Translations under genes and position numbers: made by a program
Part shown: one piece after another, positions 1-64,000 of the stretch
How the letters are laid out: each line of letters begins with the position of its first letter
Position numbering within the stretch: the first letter of the stretch is position 1
NCBI RefSeq assembly: GCF_002090135.1
Contig: NZ_BBRL01000004.1
Location: forward strand, 62,001 to 126,000
Direction: 5' to 3'
Length of the DNA: 64,000 bases
Origin: Demequina sp. NBRC 110055
Lineage (GTDB): Bacteria; Actinomycetota; Actinomycetes; Actinomycetales; Demequinaceae
Notes under the pieces: model-generated
What the model saw: only the letters and a program-made list of their open reading frames with translations
Databases searched by the model: none
Told to the model about the DNA's origin: nothing

Positions 1-384
1 CCCGGCGAGGTGACGCATCGACCCCGCCACGGCATCGGCCGTCAGCGTCACGGGCGCCCAGCCGATCTCGGCCACGCCGGGGCGCACCTCGGCCCCGAGC
101 GCGGCCGCCATGAGTTGCGCTCCCAGGCACACGCCGACGGTCGCCCGCCCCGTCTCAAGACGGGCCGCGATCAGGGCGATCTCCTCGTCGAGGACGGGAT
201 AGGCATCCCGGTCCCCCACACCGATCGGCCCGCCCAACACGACGGCGAGGTCGGCGTCGGCAGCATCGGCGAGGTCGTCGACTCCCGCGTCGAGGTAGGT
301 CACCTTAAAACCGTGGGCGCGGATCTCCGCCTCCCACACGCCCAGGTCCTCGAAAGCGACGTGGCGGACCGCGACGCACCTCAC
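1..384 (-). CDS. Class I glutamine amidotransferase, 3' end missing
   Basis: The first 128 residues of a GMP-synthase-like glutamine amidotransferase; the gene runs off the left edge. A Rossmann-like start is followed by VVLGGPIGVGD near residues 48-58 and by the nucleophile elbow GVCLGAQLMA with catalytic Cys86. The family moves ammonia from glutamine to an acceptor or hydrolyses gamma-glutamyl compounds; the His-Glu part of the triad would lie beyond the window, so activity cannot be confirmed. The GTG start overlaps the stop of the upstream DUF3054 gene by four bases (GTGA), which suggests translational coupling. The acceptor is unknown. Confidence 0.85.
   Translation of the reverse strand, partial: MRCVAVRHVAFEDLGVWEAEIRAHGFKVTYLDAGVDDLADAADADLAVVLGGPIGVGDRDAYPVLDEEIALIAARLETGRATVGVCLGAQLMAAALGAEVRPGVAEIGWAPVTLTADAVAGSMRHLAG
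27..40 (-). repeat. Exact copy of the 14-bp dispersed repeat
   Basis: CCACGGCATCGGCC on the plus strand. It lies inside the amidotransferase gene and encodes the residues ADAV in sense. Confidence 0.8.
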
Positions 385-767
385 GGCTTGAGGCCCCGCC
401 GCTTGGCGAGGGCACCCGAGACCAGGCGCCAGCCCACCAGCCCCGCGCCCAGGAACGCCCCGGCGACGATGACGAAGGAGACCTGCACGCCCTGACCGGT
501 CGCCGCGCGCAGCACCATGCCACCCACGAGTGTCGAGGCCCACACGATCGTGCCGGTGCGCTTCGCGTCGCACGGGCCGGTCCAGCCGCGAGCGATCACC
601 CATCCCACGGCGGCTCCGGCAAGGAAGGGCCACGCCGTCGTCGCGAGGCCGAGGCCGTTCTCCCCGAGCACCCCCTCGTCGTGGCTGCGCCTGCCGATGA
701 CAGAAAACAGCACGATCACACCGGCATCGAGGGCCGCGGCCCCCACGGCCGCCTCGCGAATCTTCAT
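381..767 (-). CDS. DUF3054 family membrane protein
   Basis: A 128-residue protein with four hydrophobic segments at about residues 7-24, 43-60, 72-89 and 96-118, so it is a small integral membrane protein. The pattern of short helices and the Trp/Gly-rich second and third segments fit the actinobacterial DUF3054 family, whose function is unknown. The ATG at 765-767 is preferred because it begins just before the first helix. The gene is divergent from the ABC-F gene, with 39 bases between the starts, and is coupled by a four-base overlap to the downstream amidotransferase. Family assignment is from overall resemblance only. Confidence 0.75.
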   Translation of the reverse strand: MKIREAAVGAAALDAGVIVLFSVIGRRSHDEGVLGENGLGLATTAWPFLAGAAVGWVIARGWTGPCDAKRTGTIVWASTLVGGMVLRAATGQGVQVSFVIVAGAFLGAGLVGWRLVSGALAKRRGLKP

Positions 768-794
768 GCCGTCAGTGTGCCCCACGCACGCCCG

Positions 795-800
795 TACCCT
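795..800 (+). promoter_or_regulatory. Possible leaderless -10 (TACCCT) before the ABC-F gene
   Basis: TACCCT ends six bases before the GTG start at 807 and there is no Shine-Dalgarno sequence. The same spacing recurs at several other genes here, which suggests a leaderless transcript. No clear -35 box is visible. Confidence 0.4.
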
Positions 801-806
801 TGTCGG

Positions 807-2705
807 GTGGCACATCTCCTCGGCGCGCAGTCCATCGGCCTCGACTTCGGCACCGGCACGGTCCTCACGGACGTGACCGTCGGCCTCGAGGACGGCGACC
901 GCATCGGCATCGTCGGCTCGAACGGCGCGGGCAAGTCCTCGCTGATGGCGATCCTCGCGGGCCGCCTCGCACCCCACGACGGCCAGGTCACGGCGACGCG
1001 CGGCACCCGCGTGGGCGTCCTGGACCAGTCCGACCATGTGGACGAGTCCCTCACGGTGCTTGAGGCGATCGTGGGTGACGCCGATACCCACGAGTGGGCC
1101 GGCGACGCGCGCGTGCGCGACATCATGTCCGGCCTGGTGCCCGACCTTCCGGCCGATGCCGTGGTCGGGTCGCTCTCGGGCGGCCAGCAGCGACGGGTCG
1201 CCCTGGCAGCAGTCCTCACGGGCGAACACGACGTGGTCTTCCTCGATGAGCCCACCAACCACCTGGACGTCGAGGGGGTGGCGTGGCTCGCCGAGCACCT
1301 GAACCGCAGGTGGGCCCGCGGGCGCGGCGCGCTCGCCGTCGTCACCCACGACCGCTGGTTCCTCGACGCCGTCACCGACCGCACCTGGGAGGTGCACGAC
1401 GGCACGGTCGACATGTACGAGGGCGGTTATGCCGCCTACGTGCTGCAGCGCGTGGAGCGCGACCGCATCGCCGCGGCCACCGAGGCCAAGCGGCAGAACC
1501 TCATGCGCAAGGAGCTCGCGTGGCTCCAGCGCGGCGCCCCCGCGCGCACCTCGAAGCCCAAGTTCCGCATCGACGCCGCGAACGCGCTGATCGCCGACGT
1601 GCCTCCCGTGCGCGACCAGGTGCAACTGACCCGGATGGCGACCGCGCGCCTGGGCAAGGACGTGGTCGAGCTGATCCGTTGCTCGGTGTCGTATACGACC
1701 GCCGACGGCGCCACCAAGGACGTGCTGCACGAGGTCGACTGGAACATCGGCCCCGGCGAGCGCGTGGGGCTCCTGGGTGAAAACGGTGCAGGAAAGTCCA
1801 CGCTGCTGCGCCTCATCACGGGCGATCAGGAGCCCACCAGCGGGCGCGTGAAGACGGGCATGACCGTGCGCGTCGCGCAGCTCAGCCAGCAGCTCGCGGA
1901 GCTGGACCAGCATGCCGAGGAGCGCGTCTCCGGGGTCGTCAAGCAGTTCAGCTCCATCGAGCTCGCGGACGGCTCCGAGATGACCCCCACGCAGCTGCTC
2001 GAGCGACTCGGCTTCACCTCGGCTCAGCTGAAGACCCAGGTCAAGCGCCTCTCGGGCGGCCAGCGCCGCCGTCTCCAGCTGCTGCTGGTGCTCCTGAGCG
2101 AGCCCAACGTGCTGGTGCTCGACGAGCCCACCAACGACCTCGACACCGACGTCTTGGCCGCGATGGAGGACCTGCTGGACTCGTGGCCGGGCACGCTCAT
2201 CGTGGTCAGCCACGATCGCTACCTGCTCGAGCGCGTCACCGACCAGCAGTACGCGGTTCTCGACGGGGGCCTGCGCCACCTGCCCGGCGGCGTCGACGAG
2301 TACGTGGAACTCACGCGCCACCGTCGCGCGGCGGCTGACGGCGTGGGCACCTTCGGCTCGGGTTCGCCCTCCGCGCCGAACAGTGTGAACCGAAACGAGA
2401 GCCGACACGCCGAGCCGGCCACGGCATCGGCCGTCCCCACCGGCGGGTCGAGCGCGAATCCGGTTCAGACTGTCCGGCTGAGTGGCGCCGAGCGGCGGGC
2501 GGTCGAGAAGGAGCTGCAGTCCGTCGAGCGGCGCATGGCCAAGGTCGGCGAACTGACGGAGGGCATCCACCACGAGATGGTGATGCACGATCAGGCGGAC
2601 TTCGCGGGCCTCGCGGCGCTGACGAAGCAGATCGGCGACCTCGAGGAGGAAAACGCCCAGCTCGAGGAGCGGTGGCTCGAGCTGTCGGAGGAGTTGGGCG
2701 CCTAG
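807..2705 (+). CDS. ABC-F ATPase, Uup-like
   Basis: A 632-residue soluble protein with two ABC ATPase domains and no membrane segments. Domain 1 has Walker A GSNGAGKSS at 37-45, the signature LSGGQQRR and Walker B leading to DEPTNHLD. Domain 2 has GENGAGKST, LSGGQRRR and DEPTNDLD. The C-terminal 70 residues are charged and heptad-like, as in the Uup C-terminal domain. ABC-F proteins act on the ribosome, and Uup-type members are linked to translation stress and DNA-branch handling. The GTG at 807 is chosen because homology starts there (VAHLLGAQSIG) and a -10-like box sits six bases upstream. The end overlaps the convergent LysR gene by four bases. Confidence 0.9.
   Translation: MAHLLGAQSIGLDFGTGTVLTDVTVGLEDGDRIGIVGSNGAGKSSLMAILAGRLAPHDGQVTATRGTRVGVLDQSDHVDESLTVLEAIVGDADTHEWAGDARVRDIMSGLVPDLPADAVVGSLSGGQQRRVALAAVLTGEHDVVFLDEPTNHLDVEGVAWLAEHLNRRWARGRGALAVVTHDRWFLDAVTDRTWEVHDGTVDMYEGGYAAYVLQRVERDRIAAATEAKRQNLMRKELAWLQRGAPARTSKPKFRIDAANALIADVPPVRDQVQLTRMATARLGKDVVELIRCSVSYTTADGATKDVLHEVDWNIGPGERVGLLGENGAGKSTLLRLITGDQEPTSGRVKTGMTVRVAQLSQQLAELDQHAEERVSGVVKQFSSIELADGSEMTPTQLLERLGFTSAQLKTQVKRLSGGQRRRLQLLLVLLSEPNVLVLDEPTNDLDTDVLAAMEDLLDSWPGTLIVVSHDRYLLERVTDQQYAVLDGGLRHLPGGVDEYVELTRHRRAAADGVGTFGSGSPSAPNSVNRNESRHAEPATASAVPTGGSSANPVQTVRLSGAERRAVEKELQSVERRMAKVGELTEGIHHEMVMHDQADFAGLAALTKQIGDLEEENAQLEERWLELSEELGA
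1151..1164 (+). repeat. Exact copy of the 14-bp dispersed repeat
   Basis: GGCCGATGCCGTGG inside the ABC-F gene, in sense, encoding ADAV just before the first ABC signature. Confidence 0.8.
2419..2432 (-). repeat. Exact copy of the 14-bp dispersed repeat, antisense in a gene
   Basis: CCACGGCATCGGCC inside the ABC-F gene. It reads ATASA in the linker between ATPase domain 2 and the coiled coil. This is one of the few antisense copies in a gene. Confidence 0.8.
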
Positions 2706-3643: not shown

Positions 3644-3652
3644 AGACGAATC

Positions 3653-3695
3653 CTATACAAATGCATAGATCGATCTAGTTACCCGATATCCGGGT
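3653..3695. promoter_or_regulatory. Clustered inverted repeats, probable LysR operator
   Basis: Three dyads lie between the divergent LysR and mesX starts: CTAT-N8-ATAG (3653-3668), the perfect 12-bp palindrome TAGATCGATCTA (3666-3677) and ACCCG-ATATC-CGGGT (3681-3695). The region is much more AT-rich than its surroundings. Binding by the adjacent regulator is inferred from position and dyad symmetry. Confidence 0.55.
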
Positions 3696-3764
3696 TCCGC
3701 CTGCACCATGGAGCCATTCCCTTTTCAGGGCCGACCCCGGCCACCCCTGACCGAATGGGCGATC

Positions 3765-4757: not shown

Positions 4758-4773
4758 GCCCCGGAGGTCCCCC

Positions 4774-5812: not shown

Positions 5813-6376
5813 ATGACCTGCCTGTCCCCCGATGTCACACGCCTCTCCGCGCCCCACGACGGCGAACCCGCGCTCCCCGCGGACGACTTCAAGACGCTGT
5901 TTCGTGGCCACCCCAACGGCGTCGCCGTCATCACGGCCGATGCCGGCGACGGCCCGGTCGCGCTGACCGCCTCGTCCGTCTCGTCGGTCAGCGCCGATCC
6001 GCCCCTGCTGGTGTTCTCGATCTCCGCCGAGTCGTCGGCCTCCGCCGTGCTGTCGCGCGCCCAGACGGTCGTGGTGCACCTCCTGGATGCCCGCGATCTC
6101 GGGCTCGCGAAGCTCGGCGCCGCCCGCGGGATCGACCGCTTCGCCTCGACGCACCCGTGGACGCGGCTGACGACAGGAGAGCCCGTGTACAGCGACGTCC
6201 GCGCGTGGGTGCGCTGCGCCGTCATCGATCGCCTCAACGCGGGATCGTCCACGATCTTCGCCGCACAGGCGCTCGAGTCTCACATCGCGCGCGACACGGA
6301 CGCCGACGACCACGAGGGAGCGCTGGTGTATCACGACCGCGCCTGGCACCGCCTGGGCGAGCACTCGAAAATCTAG
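5813..6376 (+). CDS. Flavin reductase-like (NAD(P)H:FMN) protein
   Basis: A 187-residue flavin reductase-like protein with the FMN-binding split-barrel fold. The start of the domain (FRGHPNGVAVITADAGDGP, residues about 30-48) and the following ALTASSVSSVSADPPLLVFS stretch are typical. Such enzymes supply reduced FMN to oxygenases. It is the third gene of the mes operon, 10 bases after mesD. It may therefore provide reducing power for an oxygen-dependent step carried out by MesX; that link is an inference. A strong bidirectional hairpin follows the gene. Confidence 0.8.
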   Translation: MTCLSPDVTRLSAPHDGEPALPADDFKTLFRGHPNGVAVITADAGDGPVALTASSVSSVSADPPLLVFSISAESSASAVLSRAQTVVVHLLDARDLGLAKLGAARGIDRFASTHPWTRLTTGEPVYSDVRAWVRCAVIDRLNAGSSTIFAAQALESHIARDTDADDHEGALVYHDRAWHRLGEHSKI

Positions 6377-6420
6377 CGGCGACCCCACGGCCGGCCACCG
6401 CATCGGCCCCACGACAAACC

Positions 6421-9556: not shown

Positions 9557-9598
9557 GAGGGCCGATGCGGTGGCTGGCCAGCCACCGCATCGGCCCTC
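9557..9598. terminator. Perfect 42-bp palindrome built from a repeat pair
   Basis: Two arms of 21 bases are exact reverse complements with no separate loop. Each arm contains GGCCGATGCGGTGG, a one-base variant of the dispersed repeat. It lies between convergent phosphoketolase and alcohol dehydrogenase genes and can serve as a terminator both ways, although no long T-run follows. Confidence 0.75.
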
Positions 9599-9611: not shown

Positions 9612-10661
9612 TTACGCGTGTGGCACCACAACCGCGCGGCCCAGCACCGAGCCCTCGATGAGCTTGTCGTAGGCCTCGAGCGCCTGGCCCATCGTGAAGC
9701 GGGTCACGTCCATCTCGATCTTGCCAGCGCGGTACAGCGCGGCAACCTCGTAGAGGTCCTCGATGGTGCCCCAGTAGGTGTTGGTAAGCGTCGACTCGTA
9801 CGGCGTCGACATGAAATTCCACTCGACGGTGCCGTTGGCGATGCCGGCGATGGTGATCGCGCCTTGGACAGCAACCACCGCACGCGAGAGCTCGATGGTG
9901 GGCTTCACCCCGACAAAGTCGAACACGGCGTCGACTCCCCTGCCGCCGGTGATCTCGCGGATCCGCTCGGCCTGTCCCTCGCCACCCTCCACGGTGACGG
10001 CGCCGCGCTTGGCCGCCAGCTCCATGGCATCGGCCTTGTTGTCCGTCGCGATGACCGTGGCGCCGGTGATGGCCTGCAGGATCTGCACGGCCACTTGGCC
10101 CAGGCCTCCTAGCCCGATGACCAGCGCGTACTTGCCGCCGCCCACCAGGACATGCGCAGAGTTCTTGATGGCGTGATACGGCGTGAGTCCGGCGTCGGCG
10201 AGCGGAGCGGCGGCGACCGGGTCGGCGTCGCCAAGCGGCACCAGATTGCGCACGGGCACCGTCATGTACTCGGCCATCCCGCCGTCACGGCCCAGCCCGA
10301 TCGCGGCGTAGGGGTTGGTGGCCTGGTTCTCGCAGTACGTGTCCTGGCCGCGCGAGCACGCGCGGCAGTGGCCACAGCCGATGGGCCCATAGGCCAGGTA
10401 GGCGTCGCCCACGGCGATGCCCTCGACCCCTTCGCCGAGTTCCTCGACCCAACCCGAGGATTCGTGACCCAGCGTGAACGGCGGCTGCAGCAGTCGCGAG
10501 ATCGGTAGCGACTCGTCGTAATCCTGAAAGACGGACACGTCGGAGTGGCAGGCTCCCGCGCCGGCCACCTTGAGCAGCACCTCTCCCGGGGCAGGGGTGG
10601 GCTTGTCGATGTCTCGTAGCGCGGGAGCGGTGTGCCACGCCTCGAAACGGACGGCCTTCAT
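9612..10661 (-). CDS. Zinc-dependent alcohol dehydrogenase
   Basis: A 349-residue medium-chain dehydrogenase. Catalytic zinc ligands are Cys38 and the GHE at 65-67; structural zinc ligands are Cys96, Cys99, Cys102 and Cys110. The Rossmann motif GLGGLG is near residue 184, followed by an acidic residue in the ATDNKAD stretch, which favours NAD over NADP. It oxidises alcohols or reduces aldehydes; the physiological substrate cannot be read from sequence. The ATG at 10659-10661 has GGAG about seven bases upstream. It is convergent with phosphoketolase, and a link through acetaldehyde/ethanol metabolism is possible but unproven. Confidence 0.93.
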   Translation of the reverse strand: MKAVRFEAWHTAPALRDIDKPTPAPGEVLLKVAGAGACHSDVSVFQDYDESLPISRLLQPPFTLGHESSGWVEELGEGVEGIAVGDAYLAYGPIGCGHCRACSRGQDTYCENQATNPYAAIGLGRDGGMAEYMTVPVRNLVPLGDADPVAAAPLADAGLTPYHAIKNSAHVLVGGGKYALVIGLGGLGQVAVQILQAITGATVIATDNKADAMELAAKRGAVTVEGGEGQAERIREITGGRGVDAVFDFVGVKPTIELSRAVVAVQGAITIAGIANGTVEWNFMSTPYESTLTNTYWGTIEDLYEVAALYRAGKIEMDVTRFTMGQALEAYDKLIEGSVLGRAVVVPHA

Positions 10662-10777: not shown

Positions 10778-11953
10778 TCAGCCGCGCGCGAGTGCGTCCC
10801 TGAACTTCATGCGTCCACCGGTGTTGAGCACCGCGCCCGCGTAGACGCGGCCCGCGATCCAGGTGAGTAGCGGGATGGTCGCGAGGCAGATGCCAATCGC
10901 GAGGGCGATCTCCCAGCCCGCGATGGTCCCGAAAGCCGCGCGCATCGGCACCATGAACGGAGCGAAGAAGGGCACCTGGGTCAGGACTGCCGTCGCGGCG
11001 CCGTCGGGGTTGTTGGGCACCAGGTAGATCGACAGATACAGCGGCACCATCATGAGCAGCATCATGGGCGTCGAGACCGCGCCGATGTCCTCCTGCCGCG
11101 ACACGAGGGCCGCGAGTCCACCAAAAAACACGGTGAAGATCGCGAAGCCCAGCACGAACCACACGGCAAGATTGCTCAGCAGCGGCCCGAGCGGGATCTC
11201 GAATTGCTCGAGCAGCCCCAGGTACCAGGTGGCGAACACGGCGGGCACCACCATCGCGGCCGCCTGCACCAGGGCGTAGAGCCCCACGCCCAGCACCTTG
11301 CCGCCCAGCAGCGTGGCGGGCCTGACCGTCGCGAGCAGGATCTCGACGACGCGGGAGGACTTCTCCTCGACCACGCCCATCATGATCACCGACGAGCTCT
11401 GGATGAGTACGAAGAACAGGATGAAGATCACGGCGAAGCCCGCGAAGAAGGCGCCGGAATCGAACTCGCCGGCGTCGTCGCCGAGCATCTCAACGCTCGC
11501 CACCGCACCCGCGAGCGCCGTCGCGACCTTCCCCGGGTCGCCGCCCAGGTCCTCGACCGTCGCGGTCAGCGCGAACTGCTGCGTGGCGGCCTGGACCACA
11601 CCGGTGAGGGTCTCATCGCCGCCGTCCAGGTAGAGCGTGGGGGCATCGGCCGGGCCTACCACCAACCCCACGGTGTCCTCGGCGATGGCGGGCTCGGCAG
11701 GCGCCTCGACCTCCTCGAAGACGTACGGCGCATCTTGCGCCTCGGCGGCGGCGTCGAGGTACGGCACCAGTTCGCCCGCGGTGGCGGTGTCGACCTGGAC
11801 GACCCCCGGCTCGTCGTCGCCGGCGAGGAACGGCTTCGCAATCAGCGAGCCGATCACGATGATCGCGATCATGATGCCCGACGAGATGAGGCTCGCCTTG
11901 GACAGGGTGCGGACGCGGAACTCGCGGCGCGCGATCAGCCACACGGTGTTCAC
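10778..11953 (-). CDS. ABC-2 type permease (NatB-like)
   Basis: A 391-residue membrane protein with one N-terminal helix (about 20-42), a large extracytoplasmic domain (about 45-175) and five or six helices after residue 180. The EEKSSRVVEILLATVRP stretch is typical of NatB/YhaP-type ABC-2 permeases. It forms an exporter with the ATPase encoded just upstream: its GTG start overlaps that gene's stop by four bases (GTGA). Substrate is unknown; relatives export sodium, drugs or peptides. Confidence 0.88.
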   Translation of the reverse strand: MNTVWLIARREFRVRTLSKASLISSGIMIAIIVIGSLIAKPFLAGDDEPGVVQVDTATAGELVPYLDAAAEAQDAPYVFEEVEAPAEPAIAEDTVGLVVGPADAPTLYLDGGDETLTGVVQAATQQFALTATVEDLGGDPGKVATALAGAVASVEMLGDDAGEFDSGAFFAGFAVIFILFFVLIQSSSVIMMGVVEEKSSRVVEILLATVRPATLLGGKVLGVGLYALVQAAAMVVPAVFATWYLGLLEQFEIPLGPLLSNLAVWFVLGFAIFTVFFGGLAALVSRQEDIGAVSTPMMLLMMVPLYLSIYLVPNNPDGAATAVLTQVPFFAPFMVPMRAAFGTIAGWEIALAIGICLATIPLLTWIAGRVYAGAVLNTGGRMKFRDALARG

Positions 11954-12849
11954 GCGGCCACCTCCTCGGACACGACGCCCTGGAACAGTTCGGTGAGGCT
12001 CGGCCGCACCGGGGCAAACGACGTGACCGTGCCAGCCTGGACGGCCGATGCGAGGGCCGTGTGGGCGGCGTCGGCGTCCGCCGCCTCGACTCGCCACACG
12101 CCTGGGGTGACTTCGGTGACCGAGCCGGCCACGGCATCGGCCCATCCCACCCGAAGGCTGCCTGCGATCTCCCACACGGGCCGCTCGGTCGCGCGGAGCT
12201 CGTCGATGGTGCCCTGAGCGACCATACGCCCGGCGCGCACGATGCCCACGCGGTCGCACAGCCGCTCCACCAGCTCGAGCTGGTGCGAGGAGAAGATGAC
12301 GGGCACGCCGCGCGCGGCCTGCTCGCGAAGAACACCGCTCATGACCTCGACGGCGACGGGGTCGAGGCCGGAGAACGGCTCGTCAAGAACCAGCACCTCG
12401 GGTCCGTGGACCAGCGCGGAGGCAAGCTGGACGCGCTGCTGATTGCCCAGCGACAGCTTCTCGACCTCGGTGTCGCGTCGCTCCGCGACACCCAAGACCT
12501 CAGTCCAGTGCTCCATCGCGTGCGCGGCGTCGGCGGCGCTCAGTCCGTGGAGTCGCGCGAGGTAGACCAGCTGCTCGCCGACCTTCATGCGAGGGTAGAG
12601 CCCGCGCTCCTCTGGCATGTAGCCGATGCGCCTGCGCGCCTCGAGGTCGAGAGGCGCGTCGTTCCAGGTCACCGACCCCGAGTCGGCCCGCAGGACGCCC
12701 AGGATGATGCGCATCGTGGTGGTCTTGCCGGCGCCGTTCGACCCGACGAAGCCGAACAGTTCCCCGCCGCGCACGGTGAAGGACACGTCGTCCAACGCCT
12801 TGAGGTCGCCGTAAGTCTTGGTCAGATGATCGATCCGCAGGTCAGGCAC
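11950..12849 (-). CDS. ABC-2 transporter ATP-binding protein (NatA-like)
   Basis: A 299-residue ATPase. Walker A is GSNGAGKTTT (about 36-45), the signature is LSLGNQQR instead of LSGGQ, and Walker B leads into DEPFSGLDP. The C-terminal 80 residues form the extra domain usual in this exporter class. It powers the coupled permease gene downstream. The GTG start at 12849 has AGGAG nine bases upstream. An exact dispersed repeat (12129-12142) encodes ADAV in its C-terminal domain. The substrate cannot be assigned. Confidence 0.9.
   Translation of the reverse strand: MPDLRIDHLTKTYGDLKALDDVSFTVRGGELFGFVGSNGAGKTTTMRIILGVLRADSGSVTWNDAPLDLEARRRIGYMPEERGLYPRMKVGEQLVYLARLHGLSAADAAHAMEHWTEVLGVAERRDTEVEKLSLGNQQRVQLASALVHGPEVLVLDEPFSGLDPVAVEVMSGVLREQAARGVPVIFSSHQLELVERLCDRVGIVRAGRMVAQGTIDELRATERPVWEIAGSLRVGWADAVAGSVTEVTPGVWRVEAADADAAHTALASAVQAGTVTSFAPVRPSLTELFQGVVSEEVAA
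12129..12142 (-). repeat. Exact copy of the 14-bp dispersed repeat
   Basis: CCACGGCATCGGCC on the plus strand; in sense with the ABC ATPase gene, encoding WADAVAG. Confidence 0.8.
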
Positions 12850-13663: not shown

Positions 13664-13699
13664 GGGGCCGATGCCGTGGTCACCCACGGCATCGGCCCC
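13664..13699 (-). terminator. Intrinsic terminator of guaB3 made from an inverted repeat pair
   Basis: Sixteen-base arms GGGGCCGATGCCGTGG and its exact complement enclose a TCAC loop. On the minus strand the stem is followed by CGTTTTTG, a real T-run, so it is a good rho-independent terminator for guaB3. Each arm contains a full copy of the 14-bp dispersed repeat. Confidence 0.9.
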
Positions 13700-14883: not shown

Positions 14884-14897
14884 GGCCGATGCCGTGG
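14884..14897 (+). repeat. Exact copy of the 14-bp dispersed repeat, intergenic
   Basis: GGCCGATGCCGTGG stands alone between the divergent guaB3 and exonuclease genes, not as an inverted pair. Confidence 0.8.
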
Positions 14898-17143: not shown

Positions 17144-17893
17144 TCAAGCGACGAGAACGCGCACCAGCATGCCGAGCGACACCACCACAATGAGCACGCG
17201 CAGCACCATGGGGTTCACCCGGAGCAGGATGTGGGAGCCGATGTAGGCGCCGATGAGCTGACCCACGATCATGACGGCGCCGATGGCCCACACCATCTTT
17301 CCGGCGAACGCGAACACCAGGAGTGACGCGATATTGGTCGCGAAGTTCAGCGTCTTCGCCAACGCGGTCGAGCGACGCAGTGGCAGCGCCTTCAGCGCGA
17401 CGCCGGAGAGCGCAAACAGCGATCCCGTGCCCGGCCCAAAGGCTCCGTCATAGGCGCCGATGACCGGGACCACGGCGCCCTCATAGGCGCGCTCGGACAC
17501 TCGCGGCGCCGCGGGGGGCTCATGCGACTTGGGGACGAAGAGGAAGTATGCCGCGATCAGCCCGAGCACCACGGGAATCACGATGTCGAGAGCGTCGGGC
17601 GGCACGAACAGGATCGCCACCGACCCCGCGGCCGAGCCGAGGAAGGCCCACAGCATCGGCCGTCTGACGTCACCCCAGCGCACGCCATGGCGGCGGATCA
17701 CCTGGGTGGTCGCCATGAACGTGCCCGCGGTGCCTTGGAGCTTGTTGGTGCCGAGCGCCTGCAGCGGAGGCACGCCGGCTAGCAACAGCGCGGGCACGGT
17801 GATGAGGCCTCCGCCGCCGGCCAAGGTATCGAGGCACCCCGCCAGGAGCGCGACAACACCGAGGACGAGCAGCAGCTGCCAGGTGATCTCCAC
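17144..17893 (-). CDS. TauE/SafE (TSUP) family permease
   Basis: A 249-residue membrane protein with seven or eight helices. The opening GCLDTLAGGGGLITVPALL and LGTNKLQGT, then their second-half counterpart GAYDGAFGPGTGSLF, are the repeated signature of TSUP transporters. Some members export sulfite, sulfoacetate or taurine-related anions; the substrate here is unknown. It begins six bases after the guaB stop on the same strand, so it is probably co-transcribed with guaB. Confidence 0.88.
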   Translation of the reverse strand: MEITWQLLLVLGVVALLAGCLDTLAGGGGLITVPALLLAGVPPLQALGTNKLQGTAGTFMATTQVIRRHGVRWGDVRRPMLWAFLGSAAGSVAILFVPPDALDIVIPVVLGLIAAYFLFVPKSHEPPAAPRVSERAYEGAVVPVIGAYDGAFGPGTGSLFALSGVALKALPLRRSTALAKTLNFATNIASLLVFAFAGKMVWAIGAVMIVGQLIGAYIGSHILLRVNPMVLRVLIVVVSLGMLVRVLVA

Positions 17894-20603: not shown

Positions 20604-21779
20604 ATGGACGCCGCGACCGCCCGCCTGCTGCTCACGCCCGACGGGCTCGCGTTGGTCGATGCGTTGCCCCCGTATGACGCGAAGCGCTCGCTCGCGATGG
20701 GCGAGTCGATACGCACCCAGGGGGTCGACCCGGCGCTCGTGGCGGCGGCGCTGACCCAGTCACGACTGCGGGCCGATGCCGTGGGCAAGCTCGGGGATTT
20801 CACCAGCGGCATGCTCCTCACCCAGGACGGGCTCGAGCAGGCGACCCGCCTCACGGTGGCCGCGCGGCACGCGGCGCGCTATCGCGACGCCGGCGTGGAG
20901 TCCGTCGCCGACCTCACGGCCGGGATCGGGGCCGATGCCATGGCCTTCGCCGCGCTTGGGCTCGACGTGACGGCGATCGAGCGCGACGAGGCGACTGCCC
21001 TACTGGCCGATCACAACCTGCGCCATTGGGACACGGCTCGCGTGGTGCATGCGGACTCGATGTCGCTCACAGAGTCGCTGGACGTCGACGCGCTCTTCGC
21101 CGACCCTGCCCGGCGCACCGCACGTGGACGCCGGCACGACCCCCAGGACTACGCGCCCGCGCTCGACGACGTGCTCGCGCTGCGTGCCTCTCACCCCGCG
21201 TTGGGTGTGAAGGTAGGCCCGGCCATCCCCCACGAGGCCATCCCGGCCGACGCGGAGGCCGAGTGGGTCTCCGTCGACGGCTCCGTCATCGAGGCGGCTC
21301 TGTGGCACGGGCCGCTCGCCACTGCGGCCGGGCACGCGGCGCTCGTCGTGCACGGCGACCAGGCGCATCGCCTCACGGGCTCCACCGATCGGGCCGACGC
21401 CGGTGAGTTGACTGACTATCTTTACGAGCCGGACGGTGCCGTGATCCGCGCCGGACTGGTGGGTGAAGTTGCCGCGCGTCTCGGCGGCCACCTCGTCGAC
21501 CCGATGATCGCGTACATCGCCGCACCCGCGCCGGTCGCGACCCCGTTCGCGCGCGGCTACCGCGTCCTCGAGACAGTCCCCCTCAAGCCCAAGGCGATCG
21601 CGCAGGCTTTGCGCACACGAAACGTTGGTGCGGTCGACATCAAGAAGCGCGGCGTCGACATCACCCCCGAGCAGCTGCGGCCTCAGCTGAAGCTCAAAGG
21701 CGACGAGCGGCTCACGGTCATCCTGACCCGCATGGGCAACCGACGGCTCGCGATCCTCGCCGAGTCGCTGGCGCCCTGA
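20604..21779 (+). CDS. SAM-dependent methyltransferase with THUMP-like domain
   Basis: A 391-residue protein. A helical N-terminal part (1-90) is followed by a class I methyltransferase core with the SAM-binding motif DLTAGIGADAMAFA (about 103-116) and the acidic AIERDE strand end, then FADPARR as the motif IV position. The C-terminal 80 residues (VPLKPKAIAQALRTRNVGAVDIKKRG, in part) match the THUMP-like domain of this family, which suggests an RNA substrate. The exact target is unknown. It contains two copies of the dispersed repeat, one exact. It is divergent from groES. Confidence 0.8.
   Translation: MDAATARLLLTPDGLALVDALPPYDAKRSLAMGESIRTQGVDPALVAAALTQSRLRADAVGKLGDFTSGMLLTQDGLEQATRLTVAARHAARYRDAGVESVADLTAGIGADAMAFAALGLDVTAIERDEATALLADHNLRHWDTARVVHADSMSLTESLDVDALFADPARRTARGRRHDPQDYAPALDDVLALRASHPALGVKVGPAIPHEAIPADAEAEWVSVDGSVIEAALWHGPLATAAGHAALVVHGDQAHRLTGSTDRADAGELTDYLYEPDGAVIRAGLVGEVAARLGGHLVDPMIAYIAAPAPVATPFARGYRVLETVPLKPKAIAQALRTRNVGAVDIKKRGVDITPEQLRPQLKLKGDERLTVILTRMGNRRLAILAESLAP
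20771..20784 (+). repeat. Exact copy of the 14-bp dispersed repeat
   Basis: GGCCGATGCCGTGG in sense in the methyltransferase gene, encoding RADAVG. A one-mismatch copy follows at 20930-20943 (GADAMA). Confidence 0.8.
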
Positions 21780-21785: not shown

Positions 21786-22283
21786 TCAGATGCCCGAGCG
21801 CAGCACCTTGCTCACCATCTGCTGACTGGTCCCCTCAGCGCGGGCAATCGCGCTCTGGGACTGGCCGGCGGCGTGCGCGGCGCGGATGCGCGCCCGGGCA
21901 GCGTCGTCGAGCGAGCCCACGCGCTGTGCGGTGGCGCCACCCCGACGACCGGACATGATCGAGTCGACGCTCGCCTTCGAGATGCCGAGCGCCGCTGCCG
22001 CCTCGGCTCGGGCCTCGCCAGCCGCGACCCGCTCGCGCACCTCGGCGACGACAGCGTCGGTGAGGCGAGCCCGGGGCTGCGCGGGCGCACCGCCGGCACC
22101 GACTCGCGCGCGAGGCGAGGGCACAGCGATGGGACCACCGGCATCGGCCCGCGTCTTGCCCGCCACGATGGCCGACACCGACGTCTGCGCGACGCCAAAC
22201 TCCTCGGCGAGCTCGACCTGGCGCGCGCCGGCCGAGTACCGCTCGCGCAGCCGCACCACGTCCGCATCGCTCAGCCTGGCCAT
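21786..22283 (-). CDS. Small protein with three tandem helix-turn-helix units
   Basis: A 165-residue protein that is almost entirely three HTH-like repeats, at about 1-44, 72-114 and 122-164. Each has a helix with Arg-rich start, an AxxxGxxxxxIA or AAALGISKASV turn, and a final recognition helix ending in a Gly/Arg stretch (VAGKT, MSGRR, LRSG). No enzymatic or ligand domain is seen. It resembles the HTH part of resolvases and Trp-repressor-like proteins without their catalytic parts. It probably binds DNA; the target is unknown. It follows the LysE gene by nine bases on the same strand. Confidence 0.65.
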   Translation of the reverse strand: MARLSDADVVRLRERYSAGARQVELAEEFGVAQTSVSAIVAGKTRADAGGPIAVPSPRARVGAGGAPAQPRARLTDAVVAEVRERVAAGEARAEAAAALGISKASVDSIMSGRRGGATAQRVGSLDDAARARIRAAHAAGQSQSAIARAEGTSQQMVSKVLRSGI

Positions 22284-22292: not shown

Positions 22293-22901
22293 CTAGGCGC
22301 CGAGGATGAGCGACACGGCAAGCGTGGCCATCACCACCGCGACCACGCCATCGAGCACCCGCCATGCGCCCGGCCGCGCGAGCACGCCGGACAGCAGCCG
22401 CGCGCCGTAGCCCAGGGCGGTGAACCACGCGAGGGAGCCGACCATCGCGCCAGCCGCGAAGGCCCACTTCGCCTCGCCATAGGTGCCCGCGACCGAGCCC
22501 AGCAGCACCACGGTGTCCAGATACACATGCGGGTTGAGCCATGTGATCGCGAGGGTGGTGCCCACCGCGGCCCACATCCCACGGCCGGTGACCCGGGCAT
22601 CGGCCGCGCGCAAGCCCTCCTCGGCGCCGCGCCACGCACGCCGGGCCGAGAACACCGCGTAGGTGGCCAGGAAGAGCGCGCCGCCGACACGCGCGGCAGT
22701 CTCCACCCACGCGTGCGCACCGATGAGGGCACCCAACCCCGCCGTCCCCACGGAGATGAGGACGGCGTCGGATCCCGCGCACACCACGATCACCGCAAGC
22801 ACATGCTCGCGACGGATTCCCTGGCGGATTACGAACACGTTTTGGGCTCCGATGGCGGCGATGAGGGAGAGGCCAAGGCCGAGACCAGCGAGAAAGATCA
22901 T
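22293..22901 (-). CDS. lysE: LysE-family amino acid exporter
   Basis: A 202-residue membrane protein with five or six helices. It has the LysE/ArgO features GAQNVFVIRQG at 18-28 and the TWLNPHVYLDTVVLLG stretch near residue 120. It exports lysine and arginine in relatives. The divergent LysG-type regulator 69 bases away supports this substrate range. The final exporter specificity is inferred from the pair. Confidence 0.9.
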   Translation of the reverse strand: MIFLAGLGLGLSLIAAIGAQNVFVIRQGIRREHVLAVIVVCAGSDAVLISVGTAGLGALIGAHAWVETAARVGGALFLATYAVFSARRAWRGAEEGLRAADARVTGRGMWAAVGTTLAITWLNPHVYLDTVVLLGSVAGTYGEAKWAFAAGAMVGSLAWFTALGYGARLLSGVLARPGAWRVLDGVVAVVMATLAVSLILGA

Positions 22902-22970: not shown

Positions 22971-23861
22971 ATGAAGGTTCCCGCCGACCTCGCCCTCACT
23001 CTCGCCGCCGCCGTCGACGCCGGCTCGCTCGATGCCGCAACCCGACGGCTCCATGTGACGCAATCCGCGGTGTCGCAGCGCCTGGCGACCCTTGAACGCC
23101 TCACGGGTCACGTGCTGTTGGTGCGCTCGCGCCCCGTGCGCGCGACCCCCGCAGGAGAAAACGTGATCCGCTACGCCCGGCAGGTGGCGCATCTCGACGA
23201 GGCGCTCGCCGCAGAGCTCGGCGCCGGAGGCGGCGCCAACGCCCTCGCCCTGGCGGTGAACGCGGATTCCCTCGCCACCTGGATCCTCGCTCCCCTCGCG
23301 ACCGCCGCCACTGAACACGGCGTCCTGTTGCACCTGCATCGAGAGGACGAGGGTCACACCACGGCGCTGCTGGCCAACGGCACGGTCGCAGCCGCCGTGA
23401 CGACGGTCGCCACACCTGTTCCCGGGTGCACGGTGACGCCGCTCGGCGTACTGACCTACCGGGCCGTCGCCGCGCCGGCATTCGCCCGCCGATGGTTCCC
23501 TGACGGGCCGACGGACGCGACGCTGACCGCCGCCCCCGTCCTCGATTTCGACGCCCGCGACACCATCCAGAGCCGCTACCTCGAGTCACGCGGCATCGAC
23601 CCGTTCGCGCCGCCACGCCACTACGTGCCGTCGTCGACGGAGTTCGCCCGCGCGATTGCCTTGGGGCTCGGCTGGGCTCTACTGCCCGACGTTCAACGCG
23701 ACGGCCTCGAGCTCGTGGAGCTCGGCGGACCCGAGGTCCACGTCACGTTGTTCTGGCAGCAGTGGCGCACGCATGCGCCGGCGCTGGTCGCGATGGCCGA
23801 TGCCGTGAGGGCCGCGGCCAGCGAGGCGCTCTCCCCCGTTGCTACGCCAGGACGCGCGTGA
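22971..23861 (+). CDS. lysG: LysR-type regulator of the LysG/ArgP group
   Basis: A 296-residue LysR-type regulator with an N-terminal winged HTH (about 2-60; [17 protein letters not shown] is the recognition region) and an effector domain. The LysG/ArgP group activates lysine/arginine exporters when these amino acids accumulate. The divergent lysE gene makes this assignment strong. The 3' end overlaps the convergent tsaD gene by 20 bases, an unusual but readable overlap. A near copy of the dispersed repeat (23795) encodes MADAV near the C-terminus. Confidence 0.88.
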
Positions 23862-24895: not shown

Positions 24896-24988
24896 GTTCG
24901 CTTCGCACGGGCGGCCGATGCGGAGGCCACCTTTCGCTGGCCCCTCACCTGGTCGGCGCGGCCCGAGGGCCGCGAGACAATAGTTGAC

Positions 24989-27141: not shown

Positions 27142-27232
27142 AGGAGTGTCCTCACGTCGACAATGATGGGTGGCCGATGCTGTGGTCGGCTGACGGGCCC
27201 GCTCCCACTTTCGGCGGGGCCGGGCCGCGCAG

Positions 27233-38692: not shown

Positions 38693-39576
38693 TCGAGAGC
38701 CTCACGCCGTGCCCGCGTGAGCTCCGCACGCACGGCGAGCTCGGCATCGGCCGGATAGGAGACCTCTTCAAGGGTGAGCCCGTGTGCCGGGGCGACGGCC
38801 ACGCCTTGCGCACGGGCCTGCGTGGCGGCGACGGCCGCGAGCCAGTCGAGGTCGCGGCGCCCCGTGCCGATGGGCAGCACCGCGCCCACGAGCGAGCGCA
38901 CCATCGAGTGACAGAACGCGTCGGCGCGCACCGTGGCGACCACCAGGCCCGCGTCCGGTCCACTGTCCACCCTCGCCCACGAAAATTCGACGAGATCGCG
39001 GATCGTGGTCGCCCCCTCGCGCGCCTTGCAGAAGGCAGCGAAGTCCCGCAGCCCGGTCAGCGTCGCCGCTGCCTCGTTCAACGCGTCGACGTCGAGTGCA
39101 CCGTCGTGCCACAGGACGTGTCGACGCGTGAGGGGGTCCCGCAGCGGCCGCTGATCGCAGATGCGATAGGCGTAGCGGCGCTGGGTGGCAGAAAACCGTG
39201 CGTCGAACCCCGCGGCGGCGACATGGGCCTCGTGCACCACGATGTCAGCGGGCGTGGTGCCGTCGAGCCGGTCGCGTAGCCCCTCGGCTGGACTTCGCTC
39301 GGCCCGTCCCGGCATGCGTGCCCACACCTCGGCGGGGATGTCGACGTGGGCGACCTGGCCGCGCGCGTGAACCCCGGCATCGGTGCGTCCCGCCACGGTG
39401 AGGCGCAGGCCGAGCGGCTCGCCCGTCCCGGGGGCGCGGGCGATGCGCGCGAGCGCGACCTCCATCTCGCCTTGCACGGTCCGCAGCCCCGGCTGGGCGG
39501 CCCAGCCTGCGAAATCCGTGCCGTCGTAGGAGAACGCGAGACGGGCCCGCACGACCTGGCTGGATAGCTCGGTCAT
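38689..39576 (-). CDS. truA: tRNA pseudouridine synthase A
   Basis: A 295-residue TruA that makes pseudouridine at positions 38-40 of tRNA. The catalytic Asp66 is in AGRTDAGVHA; SYDGTDFAGW, RRYAYRI and FCHSMVRSLVGA are conserved. ATG at 39574-39576 (MTELSSQ) is preferred to an upstream GTG. It ends the ribosomal cluster after rplQ, a common position, and is convergent with the C26 hydrolase. Confidence 0.95.
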   Translation of the reverse strand: MTELSSQVVRARLAFSYDGTDFAGWAAQPGLRTVQGEMEVALARIARAPGTGEPLGLRLTVAGRTDAGVHARGQVAHVDIPAEVWARMPGRAERSPAEGLRDRLDGTTPADIVVHEAHVAAAGFDARFSATQRRYAYRICDQRPLRDPLTRRHVLWHDGALDVDALNEAAATLTGLRDFAAFCKAREGATTIRDLVEFSWARVDSGPDAGLVVATVRADAFCHSMVRSLVGAVLPIGTGRRDLDWLAAVAATQARAQGVAVAPAHGLTLEEVSYPADAELAVRAELTRARREALD

Positions 39577-39636
39577 GCGGGCCCGTCTCGTGAGTGGCGT
39601 CGACGCGCAGGTGACCCCGCGCATCGGCCGTCGGTC

Positions 39637-41257: not shown

Positions 41258-41298
41258 CTTGACTGCGGCCGATGCCGTGGGCATCGGCCGCGGTCAAG
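41258..41298 (-). terminator. Repeat-built hairpin between rpsK and rpoA
   Basis: Arms of 19 bases (41258-41276 and 41280-41298) pair with one T-G wobble around a GTG loop; the core of each is GCGGCCGATGCC. It contains an exact copy of the dispersed repeat (41267-41280) and an inverted partner. No T-run follows on the minus strand, so it may be a weak attenuator or RNA-processing site rather than a full terminator. Confidence 0.65.
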
Positions 41299-41742: not shown

Positions 41743-42111
<369 letters not shown>

Positions 42112-42731: not shown

Positions 42732-43040
42732 TCAGCGGTAGCCGTTGCGCAGGCGTTGCACGGCCGCATCGGCCAGGGCCGCATTGCGATGATCCGACAA
42801 CTTGCGTACTACCGACGACGGCGTGCGCGGGTTGCGCAGCAACGCGTGCAAGACATCCAGCGAAGGATCGTACCCGAGCGACATCAGCGCTGCCATGGGG
42901 GCGTCCGTCCGTGCGGCGACGGCGGCACGTACCTGGGGGTCGCGGTGCGCGGCGAGCGTCAGGAGTTCTGCAGACTCAAGGGAGGGGTCCTGGGCGAGGA
43001 CCGCTGCATCGGCGGTATCGCGCATCGGGGACATGCTCAC
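42732..43040 (-). CDS. Leucine-rich-repeat-variant protein 1 (short)
   Basis: A protein of about 102 residues built from repeats of roughly 24 residues with the pattern HRDPQVRAAVAARTDAP...LMSLG and DPSLDVLHALLRNPRTP...VRKL. This is the LRV (leucine-rich repeat variant) or HEAT-like helical pattern. There is no signal peptide. The GTG at 43038-43040 is chosen because AGAAGG lies nine bases upstream; a GTG at 43058 is possible. It is one of three related genes in the map-infA gap. Function is unknown; protein-protein binding is likely from the fold. Confidence 0.65.
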   Translation of the reverse strand: MSMSPMRDTADAAVLAQDPSLESAELLTLAAHRDPQVRAAVAARTDAPMAALMSLGYDPSLDVLHALLRNPRTPSSVVRKLSDHRNAALADAAVQRLRNGYR

Positions 43041-57352: not shown

Positions 57353-57486
57353 CACGGGCCCCGCTTGCCTGCGACCGTCCACTCTACCGTGGTATCACGC
57401 TCGCGTCGCGGGGCACCGCGACCGAATCCCGCCCACTCGCCTACGAGGACGAAACCCGGCTCCGGCATCGGCCCCCCGCACGCACA

Positions 57487-58849: not shown

Positions 58850-60964
58850 TTACTCGCCGCGGGTCTTCGCGATGATCTCGTCGGCCACAGCCTTCGGGAC
58901 CTCCGCGTAGCTGTCGAACACCATCGAGTAGACGGCGCGACCGGACGTCTTCGACCGCAGGTCGCCGACGTAACCGAACATCTCCGACAGCGGCACGAGC
59001 GCGTCGACCACCTTGACGCCGGACGCATCCGACATCTGGCGGATCTGGCCGCGGCGGGAGTTGATGTCACCAATGACGTCACCCATGTACTCCTCGGGAG
59101 TACGGACCTCAACGGCGAACATCGGCTCGAGCAGGACGGGCTTCGCGAGGCGCGCGGCCTCCTTGAAGGCCATCGAGCCCGCGATCTTGAACGCCATCTC
59201 CGAGGAGTCGACGTCGTGGTAGGCACCGTCAAGCAGCGTGGCCTTGACGCCCACGACCGGGTAACCGGCCTGGATGCCCAGCTCCATCGCGGACTGGATA
59301 CCGGCGTCGACCGACGGGATGTACTCGCGCGGCACGCGACCACCGGTCACGGCGTTGTCGAACTCGTACAGCACCTCGGCATCGGCCTCGAGGGGCTCCA
59401 GACGGATCTGGACCTTCGCGAACTGGCCGGAACCACCGGTCTGCTTCTTGTGCGTGTAGTCGTACTTGTCGACGGTCTTGCGGATCGTCTCGCGGTACGC
59501 CACCTGGGGCTTACCCACGTTGGCGTCGACCTTGAACTCGCGGCGCATGCGGTCCACGAGGATGTCGAGGTGCAGCTCGCCCATACCGCCGATGACGGTC
59601 TGGCCGGTCTCCTCGTCCAGGCGCACGCGGAAGGTGGGGTCCTCCTCGGCGAGCTTCTGGATGGCGGTCGACAGCTTCTCCTGGTCACCCTTGGTCTTGG
59701 GCTCGATGGCCACGTCGATCACGGGCTCCGGGAACGTCATCGACTCGAGGACGACCTGGTGGTCCGGGTTGCACAGGGTGTCACCGGTCGTGGTGTCCTT
59801 CAGACCGATCACGGCGTAGATGTGACCCGCCTGGATCGTGTCGACCGGGTTTTCCTTGTTGGCGTGCATCTGGAAGAGCTTGCCGATGCGCTCCTTCTTG
59901 CCCTTGGTCGAGTTAATGACCTGGGCACCGGTCTCGAGGTGACCGGAGTAGACGCGCACGTAGGTGAGGCGGCCGAAGAACGGGTGCGACACAACCTTGA
60001 ACGCAAGGGCCGCGAAGGGCTCGTTCGCGTCGGCGTGACGCTCGATCTCGATGGACTCGTCCTTGGCGTCGACACCCTTGATGGCGGGCACGTCGGCCGG
60101 GCCGGGCAGGTAGTCGATGACCGCGTCGAGCATGGGCTGGACGCCACGGTTCTTGTACGCCGAGCCACACAGGACCGGGTACAGCTCCGAGGCAACCGTC
60201 ATCTTGCGGATCGCGGCCTTGATCTCGGCCGTGGTCAGCTCCTCGCCGCCGAGGTACTTCTCGAGCAGCGCCTCGTCCGACTCGGCCACCGTCTCGAGGA
60301 GTTCGGCACGGTACTGGTCGGCCTTGTCCTTGAGGTCCGCGGGGATCTCGGTGGTCTCGTAGGTCGCACCCATGGTCACGTCGCCCTTGGCGTCGCCGGG
60401 CCACACCTTGGCGTTCATCTCGACGAGGTCGACGATGCCGACGAAGTCGTTCTCAGCGCCGATGGGCAGCTGGATGACGAGCGGCTTGGCGCCGAGGCGC
60501 TTCACGATGGTGTCGACCGTGAAGTAGAAGTCCGCGCCCAGCTTGTCCATCTTGTTGACGAAGCAGATGCGGGGGACGTCGTACTTGTCGGCCTGACGCC
60601 AGACGTTCTCCGACTGGGGCTCCACGCCCTCCTTCGCGTCGAAGACCGCGACCGCGCCGTCGAGGACGCGCAGCGAGCGCTCGACCTCGACCGTGAAGTC
60701 CACGTGACCGGGGGTGTCGATGATGTTGATCTGGTGCTTGTCCCAGAAGCAGGTCACCGCGGCGGAGGTGATGGTGATGCCGCGCTCCTGCTCCTGCTCC
60801 ATCCAGTCAGTCGTCGACGCACCTTCGTGGGTCTCACCGATCTTGTGGTTCACACCCGTGTAGAACAGGATGCGCTCGGTGGTGGTGGTCTTGCCGGCGT
60901 CGATGTGCGCCATGATGCCGATGTTGCGGACCTTGGTGAGGTCCGTGAGCACGTCCTGTGCCAC
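58850..60964 (-). CDS. fusA: Elongation factor G
   Basis: A 704-residue EF-G, the translocase. G1 is [14 protein letters not shown]3 DTPGHVDF and G4 NKMDK; the domain IV tip region and C-terminal [14 protein letters not shown] (as [15 protein letters not shown]) are intact. GTG start. It follows rpsG by 41 bases. Confidence 0.98.
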
Positions 60965-62151: not shown

Positions 62152-62165
62152 GGCCGATGCCGTGG
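62152..62165 (+). repeat. Exact copy of the 14-bp dispersed repeat, intergenic
   Basis: GGCCGATGCCGTGG upstream of the str promoter, with a second core copy in opposite orientation at 62217-62225. Confidence 0.8.
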
Positions 62166-62366
62166 CAACGGCCGTATGAGGTGCGCCACAGCGAAGCGTA
62201 CGTATGGCATCGGCCACGCGGAGGCGTGCATTCGCGCCCGCCCCCTCGGGTCGTGGCGCACATGTCCTCATCTCCGCCATGCACGCGCCCGTCGTGGCGC
62301 GCGTGAGGACATGAGCAGCCCGGCGGCGAGCGGGACCCGGCCCACGCGCCCGCCGAGACACGCGAA

Positions 62367-62396
62367 GGCCCGGCCACCCCGAAGGGCAGCCGGGCC
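62367..62396 (-). terminator. Terminator hairpin of rpoC
   Basis: GGCCCGGC (62367-62374) pairs with GCCGGGCC (62389-62396), with further inner pairing. It begins 17 bases after the rpoC stop. No strong T-run. Confidence 0.7.
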
Positions 62397-62412
62397 AAGC
62401 GTGACGCGGCGC

Positions 62413-64000
62413 TTAGTCGCGCGGCAGGTCGAACTCCTCGAGCGGCACGGCCTCGCCGGTGCCCTCCGAGAAGAACTGGCCGTCCCACTCCTCGTACCCG
62501 AAGGTCGGGAACAGGTTGGCCTTGGCCTCTTCGGTGGGCTCGACGGTCGCCGTGCGGTACTGGTGCAGACCGGTACCGGCGGGGATGAGCTTACCGAGGA
62601 TGACGTTCTCCTTGAGGCCCACGAGCGGGTCGGACTTGCCGGACATCGCGGCCTCGGTGAGGACGCGCGTGGTCTCCTGGAAGGAGGCCGCCGACAGCCA
62701 CGACTCGGTCGCGAGCGACGCCTTGGTGATACCCATGAGCTCGGGACGGGCCGATGCCGGCTTGCCGCCCTTCGTCACGGTCTCACGGTTGGCCTTCTCG
62801 AAGCGCGCACGCTCCGCGAGCTCGCCCGGCAGCAGCGGGGAGTCACCCGAGTCCAGCACGGTCACGCGACGCAGCATCTGGCGCACGATGACCTCGATGT
62901 GCTTGTCGTGGATCTCCACACCCTGTGAGCGGTACACGTTCTGCACCTCGTCGACCAGGTGCTTCTGCGTGGCACGGGGGCCGAGGATGCGCAGGACGCT
63001 CTTCGGGTCCACCGCACCGGCGACCAGCTGCTGGCCCACCTCGACGTGCTCGCCATCCTGAACCAGGAGACGCGAACGCTTCGTGACGGGGTACTCGAAC
63101 GGCTCGTCGCCGTTGTCGGGCGTGACGACCAGGCGGCGCGTGGCCTCCGAGTCGTCGACCTTCAGGGTTCCGGCGACCTCGGAGATCGGGGCCTCACCCT
63201 TGGGGGTACGGGCCTCGAAGAGCTCCTGGACACGCGGCAGACCCTGCGTGATGTCGTCTGCGGACGCCACGCCACCGGTGTGGAACGTACGCATCGTCAG
63301 CTGGGTACCGGGCTCACCGATCGACTGGGCCGCAACGATACCGACGGCCTCGCCGATGTCGACAAGCTCACGGGTCGCGAGCGAGCGGCCGTAGCACTTG
63401 GCGCAGGTACCGACGGCGGACTCACAGGTGAGCACCGAACGGACCTTGACCTCGGTGATGCCGTGGCCGATTAGGTTGTCGATCAGCACATCGCCGATGT
63501 CCGCGCCGGCCTTACCGACCACGTTGCCGTCGGCGTCGGTGACGTCGGTCGCGAGCGTGCGGGCGAAGACCGAGGTCTCCACACGCTCGTGCTTGACGAC
63601 CTCGCCCGTCGCGGTGGTCTCGACGATGGGCATCGCCAGTCCACGCTCCGTGCCGCAGTCCTCCTCGCGCACGATGACGTCCTGCGACACGTCCACCAGA
63701 CGACGGGTCAGGTAACCCGAGTCGGCGGTACGCAGCGCGGTGTCGGCCAGACCCTTACGGGCACCGTGCGTCGCGATGAAGTACTCGAGGACCGACAGGC
63801 CCTCGCGGTAGTTCGACTTGATCGGACGCGGGATGATCTCACCCTTCGGGTTGGCCACGAGGCCACGCATACCCGCGATCTGACGGACCTGCATCCAGTT
63901 ACCACGCGCACCCGAACCGACCATGGTGTGGACGGTGTTGTGCTTGGGGAACGACTCACGCATGGCGCGGTCGACCTCGTTGGTGGCCTGGGTCCAGATC
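62413..64000 (-). CDS. rpoC: RNA polymerase beta' subunit, C-terminal part
   Basis: About 528 residues of the C-terminal end of beta'; the 5' part lies outside the window. The second zinc site is seen as EDCGTE plus [18 protein letters not shown], followed by the trigger-loop-adjacent [19 protein letters not shown]. The end [11 protein letters not shown] is normal. It lies upstream of the str operon, the usual rpoBC-rpsL order. Confidence 0.98.

Follow-up and report, generated by a model that had tools for sequence, protein, structure and literature searches.

A 14-base word is dispersed through the Demequina genome

The window analyzed here is a stretch of 64,000 nucleotides from Demequina sp. 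NBRC 110055 (NCBI RefSeq assembly GCF_002090135.1; 2.82 Mb, 14 contigs), comprising bases 62001-126000 of contig 4 (NZ_BBRL01000004.1). It carries a dispersed 14-base word, GGCCGATGCCGTGG, with the 9-base core GGCCGATGC, that probably represents a DNA uptake sequence (DUS). A recount of the window returned the same ten coordinates for the exact 14-mer and the same 42 core copies as an original prediction made from the sequence alone. The core count compares with a mean of 1.96 (standard deviation (sd) 1.28, maximum 6) in 100 dinucleotide-preserving shuffles, a 21-fold excess where around 20-fold had been estimated. Fourteen of the 42 cores lie outside genes in a window that is 90% coding by our gene calls, again in agreement with the earlier figures.

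Exact matching places the 14-mer at 1151..1164, 20771..20784 and, outside genes, 14884..14897 on the plus strand and at 27..40, 2419..2432 and 12129..12142 on the minus strand. The remaining exact copies were assigned to inverted pairs by a pair search. At 13666..13697, two of them face each other (left arm 13666..13679, plus; right arm 13684..13697, minus) 17 bases 3' of the end of a minus-strand gene in an arrangement resembling an intrinsic terminator. An exact copy at 41267..41280 (plus) and a core at 41281..41289 (minus) form a close pair spanning 41267..41289 with starts 14 bases apart, while the copy at 62152..62165 (plus) and a core at 62207..62215 (minus) form a wider pair spanning 62152..62215 with starts 55 bases apart. 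The pair at 9560..9595 is composed of cores outside genes (9560..9568, plus; 9587..9595, minus), lies between convergent genes and has a predicted hairpin of -52.8 kcal/mol. Further cores outside genes are located at 24913..24921 and 27172..27180 (plus) and at 6400..6408, 39621..39629 and 57465..57473 (minus). The other plus-strand cores occupy 5935..5943, 12043..12051, 20930..20938, 23795..23803, 32367..32375, 38188..38196, 42033..42041 and 62749..62757, and the other minus-strand cores 10027..10035, 11643..11651, 17653..17661, 22141..22149, 22597..22605, 28416..28424, 28605..28613, 31405..31413, 32131..32139, 35517..35525, 38744..38752, 42766..42774 and 59379..59387. Two additional minus-strand cores (29325..29333 and 30258..30266) are found in alr. 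Among the loci listed as matches to the window's alanine racemase, 12 named Demequina or Demequinaceae show 65-84% identity and the other 68 at most 56%, which identifies the host as a Demequina.

The excess extends genome-wide and is independent of codon choice

Across the 2.82 Mb assembly, the exact 14-mer is present 325 times, 173 and 152 times on the two strands, compared with one copy (1 + 0) of the reversed word. A bias towards the plus strand beyond 204 kb of one contig was considered and rejected, since all four 20-kb stretches examined there contain minus-strand copies as well. For analyses relative to genes we used a 469-kb sample of the own genome, 84% coding, in which a simple script called 436 genes. 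Some of its stretches were picked at or near known copies, which inflates absolute densities somewhat and leaves the shuffle-based comparison of coding sequence unaffected. Forty shuffles of synonymous codons within genes reduced the genic cores from 228 to a mean of 33.6 (sd 5.1, maximum 44) and the genic 14-mers from 36 to 0.8 (maximum 3), demonstrating an excess beyond codon choice. Genic cores are read predominantly as Ala-Asp-Ala (129), Ala-Ser-Ala (59) or Ile-Gly (34), while a further six use two other frames and the Gly-Arg-Cys frame is unused. The 14-mer is approximately 3.8 times denser between genes (26 in 74 kb) than inside them (36 in 395 kb). Most cores are single and genic (228 of 301), and the layout described in the original prediction, with single copies in genes and inverted pairs between genes, holds in this sample. 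A 10-mer form was counted 203 times in 473 kb, which extrapolates to about 1200 per genome.

The core is unevenly distributed. Ten of 94 five-kb bins of the sample lack it (3.9 expected), and in the window no core is found over 14.7 kb (42775-57464), a stretch of ribosomal protein genes and secY. The gene content of this stretch led us to reject a foreign island as its explanation. A general lack of the motif in foreign DNA was likewise not borne out by the core-free bins inspected, which contain genes for ribosomal proteins, rRNA, ribonucleotide reductase, dnaB, a surface-polymer ligase and pilus components as well as unassigned genes. The motif seems to be kept out of genes under strong constraint.

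Copies originate by base substitution

Of 301 own sites, 76 had a stretch in a relative that could be aligned, and pairs of genic site and relative were counted, with 9-mers located 45 or 60 bases from the motif as controls. Of the 342 genic motif pairs, 241 show substitutions, 88 are identical and 13 contain gaps; the 1292 control pairs divide into 1084, 154 and 54, respectively. The share of gaps is thus similar (3.8% and 4.2%) while identity is more common at the motif (26% vs 12%), a comparison qualified by the different composition of the control words. Copies at genic sites therefore originate by base substitution at orthologous places, without insertion. Of the 183 changes at position 7, 128 have T in the own genome and C in the relative, giving GAT here and GAC there. 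Among the few intergenic sites, 8 of 21 are gapped. The flanks of 410 GCCGATGC copies carry only a weak signal beyond positions -3 to +18, and the conserved asymmetric stretch spans about 14 bases.

Intergenic inverted pairs form hairpins close to gene ends

Twenty core pairs with a spacing of up to 80 bases were found in the own-genome sample. In 12 of them the cores face each other, and eight of these are intergenic. Six of the eight are located 5 to 27 bases beyond the 3' end of a gene, the other two at 60 and 197 bases. Folding of five pairs predicts a strong hairpin in every case, at -43.5 to -52.8 kcal/mol (z scores of -6.7 to -9.5). For the pair at 13666..13697, the minus strand (13655-13715) folds into a hairpin of -43.5 kcal/mol that is followed by a U run. 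Some intergenic head-to-head pairs may double as transcription terminators. In Neisseriaceae, inverted DUS pairs at terminators are described by Frye and co-workers in passages of their report (PMC3630211).

The word is respelled in species dialects within the genus

Counts of 8- to 11-mers made without a given motif recover the word, respelled, in most Demequina sampled, the related spellings across species being GGCCGATGC[C/T/G]GTGG, GGACGATGCGGTGG and GGCCCGACGCTG. Exact copies of GGCCGATGCCGTGG number 444 in G024, 325 in the own genome, 141 in G015, 108 in G061, 80 in G059 and 77 in G010. For GGCCGATGCGGTGG, searched in 25 Demequina, counts are 129 (G015), 74 (G022), 64 (own genome), 51 (G016), 48 (G024) and 47 (G014), and GGCCGATGCTGTGG is present 67 times in G010. 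GGACGATGCGGTGG is found 91, 90, 89 and 88 times in G023, G006, G022 and G017, respectively, and four times in the own genome. The two main forms, GGCCGATGCNGTGG and GGACGATGCNGTGG, jointly reach at least 20 copies in 34 of 44 Demequina searched, with at most five copies of the reversed control of either pattern; ten genomes fall below 20. At position 3, C is the more common letter in 18 of the 34 genomes and A in 16. Comparison with close relatives, as proposed in the original prediction, thus revealed species dialects within the genus.

Among the ten low genomes, G009 uses GGCCCGACGCTG, and its 11-mer GCCCGACGCTG occurs 16 times in 60 kb where 0.1 is expected. We had considered G009 a case of competence and motif being lost together and rejected this on account of its own divergent spelling. 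The comEC match of this genome (contig 1, 2039413-2040200) is split over two overlapping frames, which could mean that competence was recently lost or that the assembly is wrong at this place. The word GCCGACGCC in G003 may be plain codon usage and was excluded from the dialect count; the motif signal of G012 is weak.

The excess is not a general property of high-GC actinobacteria. Each of 22 genomes from other genera of the same order contains 0 to 3 copies of the own 14-mer, and counts without a given motif returned no relative of the word in six of these genomes. Homologous loci pooled from Micromonospora, Mycobacterium and Nocardia were confounded by their homology and left out.

Other word patterns were observed in individual genomes. 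In G002, 21 of 22 copies of GGCCGATGCGGTGG lie on one strand, mostly on different contigs, which is unlike the other genomes and may reflect either the orientation of the contigs or a genuine bias. In G038, from another family of the order (L278, L279), where no N-methyl pilin was detected, ACGACGCCG occurs 21 times in 40 kb with 2.2 expected, which points to codon usage or a further dispersed word. A longer repeat with GTGATCATGCA and GGGATTGCATG reaches 12 to 14 copies in 100 kb of G037 (L262-L266), where hardly any would be expected, and is probably a repeat array or mobile element. Several unrelated 11-mers of G018 (L122, L123, L171, L172), GTGAGGGTGTA and GGATGGTGACC among them, are each found seven times in 80 kb with about 0.1 or fewer expected and probably reflect a repeated gene or array.

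Demequina genomes encode competence proteins and type IV pili

A search for com and pil genes, which the original prediction had called for, identified comEA, comEC and type IV pilus genes in the own genome. Of 25 Demequina, 24 encode a ComEC that scores above the Pfam cut-off, the exception being an 85% complete genome, and all 25 have N-methyl pilins. In the own genome, comEA (SLBB and helix-hairpin-helix domains) adjoins comEC (L159). The type IV pilus cluster is located at about 6700-17800 of the first 20 kb of contig 10 (bases 1-20000) and encodes a PilB-like ATPase with an MshEN domain, a PilT-family ATPase, PilC, PilM and pilins. The PilB score of 640 bits is slightly below the NCBIfam cut-off of 676. 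The bin at 10001-15000 of contig 10 has a G+C content of 0.59, compared with about 0.68 in the genome sample, and contains no motif core.

A lone pilin gene with a C-terminal cysteine pair lies away from this cluster (L088:12973-13386, minus strand). Relatives of this pilin that share the signature came from most, though not all, loci examined. The nearest relatives of the own lone pilin come from G024, G061 and G015, which together with the own genome are the four genomes with the most copies of the own 14-mer. A predicted model of the G024 lone pilin adopts a type IV pilin fold. Purely by analogy, this lone minor pilin is a candidate for the receptor. The lone pilin of G061 shares 66% identity with that of the own genome, and we had predicted beforehand that G061, then taken for a distant species, would be rich in the own spelling; its 108 copies rank fourth of 44. 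G061 is also the second closest of nine named relatives (82.9% over 13 shared genes). We therefore rejected it as a distant species backing a link between pilin and motif, since the copy number of a near relative is not independent of kinship.

A DNA uptake sequence is the probable explanation of the repeat

Taken together, the findings make a DNA uptake sequence probable: the repeat would label self DNA with a short asymmetric word, and the uptake machinery would contain a receptor with a preference for it. The uptake reading offered in the original prediction stands in part. The excess beyond codon choice, the presence on both strands, the layout, the dialects, the machinery genes and the origin by substitution all speak for it, while preferential uptake, biased import, the terminator role and the receptor belong to its putative part. 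According to the proposed mechanism, a receptor would prefer DNA carrying the motif, retraction of a type IV pilus would pull the bound DNA in, ComEA and ComEC would receive it, and recombination would bring it into the chromosome. Copies would build up because labelled alleles are imported more often than unlabelled ones, accumulating where protein sequence or intergenic DNA tolerates them and drifting into species dialects. Some intergenic copies, paired head to head, might also act as terminators.

Several observations weigh against this interpretation. The machinery genes are not specific, as comEC is also found in 13 of 14 genomes from other genera and N-methyl pilins in six of the 14. 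Despite pilins and comEC, G001 and G018 show no clear motif. The 325 exact 14-mers are fewer than the 943 to 5918 ten-mers given for Neisseriaceae in passages of PMC3630211. Covariation between lone pilin and dialect was assessed over 24 genomes: a lone pilin was obtained for 29 of 44, the other 15 having no pilin distinguishable from the main pilin or none extracted, and five with under 30 motif copies were dropped. The dialect, given by the letter at position 3, correlates with alanine racemase distance (r = 0.60) and with lone pilin distance (r = 0.26). With racemase distance removed, the partial correlation of lone pilin and dialect across these 24 genomes is 0.05, a value reached by 197 of 999 permutations. 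All 29 lone pilins are moreover acidic, with isoelectric points (pI) of 4.1 to 6.3. The DNA-binding protein ComP, the DUS receptor in Neisseriaceae, is unlike such acidic pilins. The own ComEA, a member of a DNA-binding family, is acidic too (pI 4.3).

Among the alternatives, a highly iterated methylation or chromosome-binding motif unrelated to uptake and comparable to HIP1 of cyanobacteria, with sites kept for an orphan methyltransferase or a nucleoid protein, would account for a frequent word scattered over genes and gaps on both strands, and its species variants could track a changing binding protein. The conserved asymmetric stretch is however long for a methylation site, and inverted pairs at terminators are a known habit of uptake sequences (passages in PMC3630211), making this explanation unlikely. 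Recombination or segregation signals read by a translocating enzyme, such as Chi (RecBCD or AdnAB) or the FtsK-orienting polar sequences (KOPS), are similarly short, asymmetric, frequent and genus-specific. Yet copies show no replication bias with the leading strand judged by GC skew of stretches of up to 20 kb: leading and lagging counts are 121 and 114 in the own genome, 73 and 68 in GGAC genomes and 85 and 90 in other GGCC genomes. Inverted pairs and intergenic enrichment would also be unexpected, and we regard such a signal as very improbable. Mobile or dead repeat units spread by a transposase, for example repetitive extragenic palindromic (REP) elements or miniature inverted-repeat transposable elements (MITEs), are suggested by the resemblance of intergenic inverted pairs to REP palindromes and are scarcely credible given the control-like gap share at genic sites, the little conservation of flanks and the prevalence of single genic cores. 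A high-GC genome could in principle generate the word through codon usage or base composition, GCC-GAT-GCC (Ala-Asp-Ala) being a plausible string, but this can practically be dismissed, as synonymous shuffling removes most genic cores, relatives usually carry GAC where the own genome has GAT, the motif is denser outside genes and the 14-mer is nearly absent from the 22 genomes of other genera. The testable sequence-level hallmarks of an uptake sequence are thus present, and codon usage, mobile repeats and Chi or KOPS signals fail as explanations.

If the uptake sequence interpretation is correct, sequence-selective uptake evolved again in cells without an outer membrane, and Demequina would offer a genus with graded dialects for studying joint change of receptor and label. 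Whether uptake sequences are a by-product of a biased receptor or serve mate recognition would become testable in an independent lineage, and self-labelling would appear as a convergent result of pilus-driven transformation beyond two Gram-negative families.

Comparison with known systems

The HIP1 element of cyanobacteria is a very frequent short palindrome found in genes and gaps. The Demequina word resembles it in frequency and placement and differs in being asymmetric, longer and part of a dialect series.

Pasteurellaceae and Neisseriaceae are the families named as having uptake sequences in the passages covered of PMC1939737 and PMC7811141. In the titles and abstract openings listed, with preprints and most subscription papers outside the search, none was reported for an actinobacterium. 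For the Neisseria DUS, passages of PMC3630211 describe dialects, thousands of copies and inverted pairs at terminators; its receptor ComP is treated in PMC3868556 and PMC4906244. The Demequina word shares with it the short, asymmetric and abundant form, the presence on both strands in genes and gaps, the terminator-like inverted pairs, the association with type IV pili and com genes, the dialects in related species and the occurrence of two dialects within one genome. The sequences are unrelated, with C-G-A-Y-G-C conserved in the Demequina spellings observed and CTG forming the core in Neisseria, and the Demequina host is a high-GC Gram-positive with fewer exact copies of the full word. The uptake signal sequence (USS) of Pasteurellaceae has a predicted receptor, ComN/PpdA, that coevolves with the motif (passages in PMC12616744). 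Excess of a 9-base core, family-wide dialects and a type IV minor pilin proposed as receptor are common to both systems. The Demequina word differs from the USS in sequence and phylum, and no coevolution of its lone pilin beyond kinship was found in the 24 genomes assessed.

Micrococcus luteus, like Demequina an actinobacterium with comEA and comEC, is naturally transformed through Tad/Flp pili (passages in PMC6370729), and the passages covered of the literature on its transformation mention no uptake sequence (PMC4322843, PMC6370729). Demequina, in contrast, possesses a PilB-PilT-PilC-PilM type IV pilus cluster. We lean towards viewing Demequina as a third uptake-sequence system, independent of those in Neisseriaceae and Pasteurellaceae, in which a retractile type IV pilus, a pilin receptor and about five spellings in one genus would make self-labelling a convergent trait.

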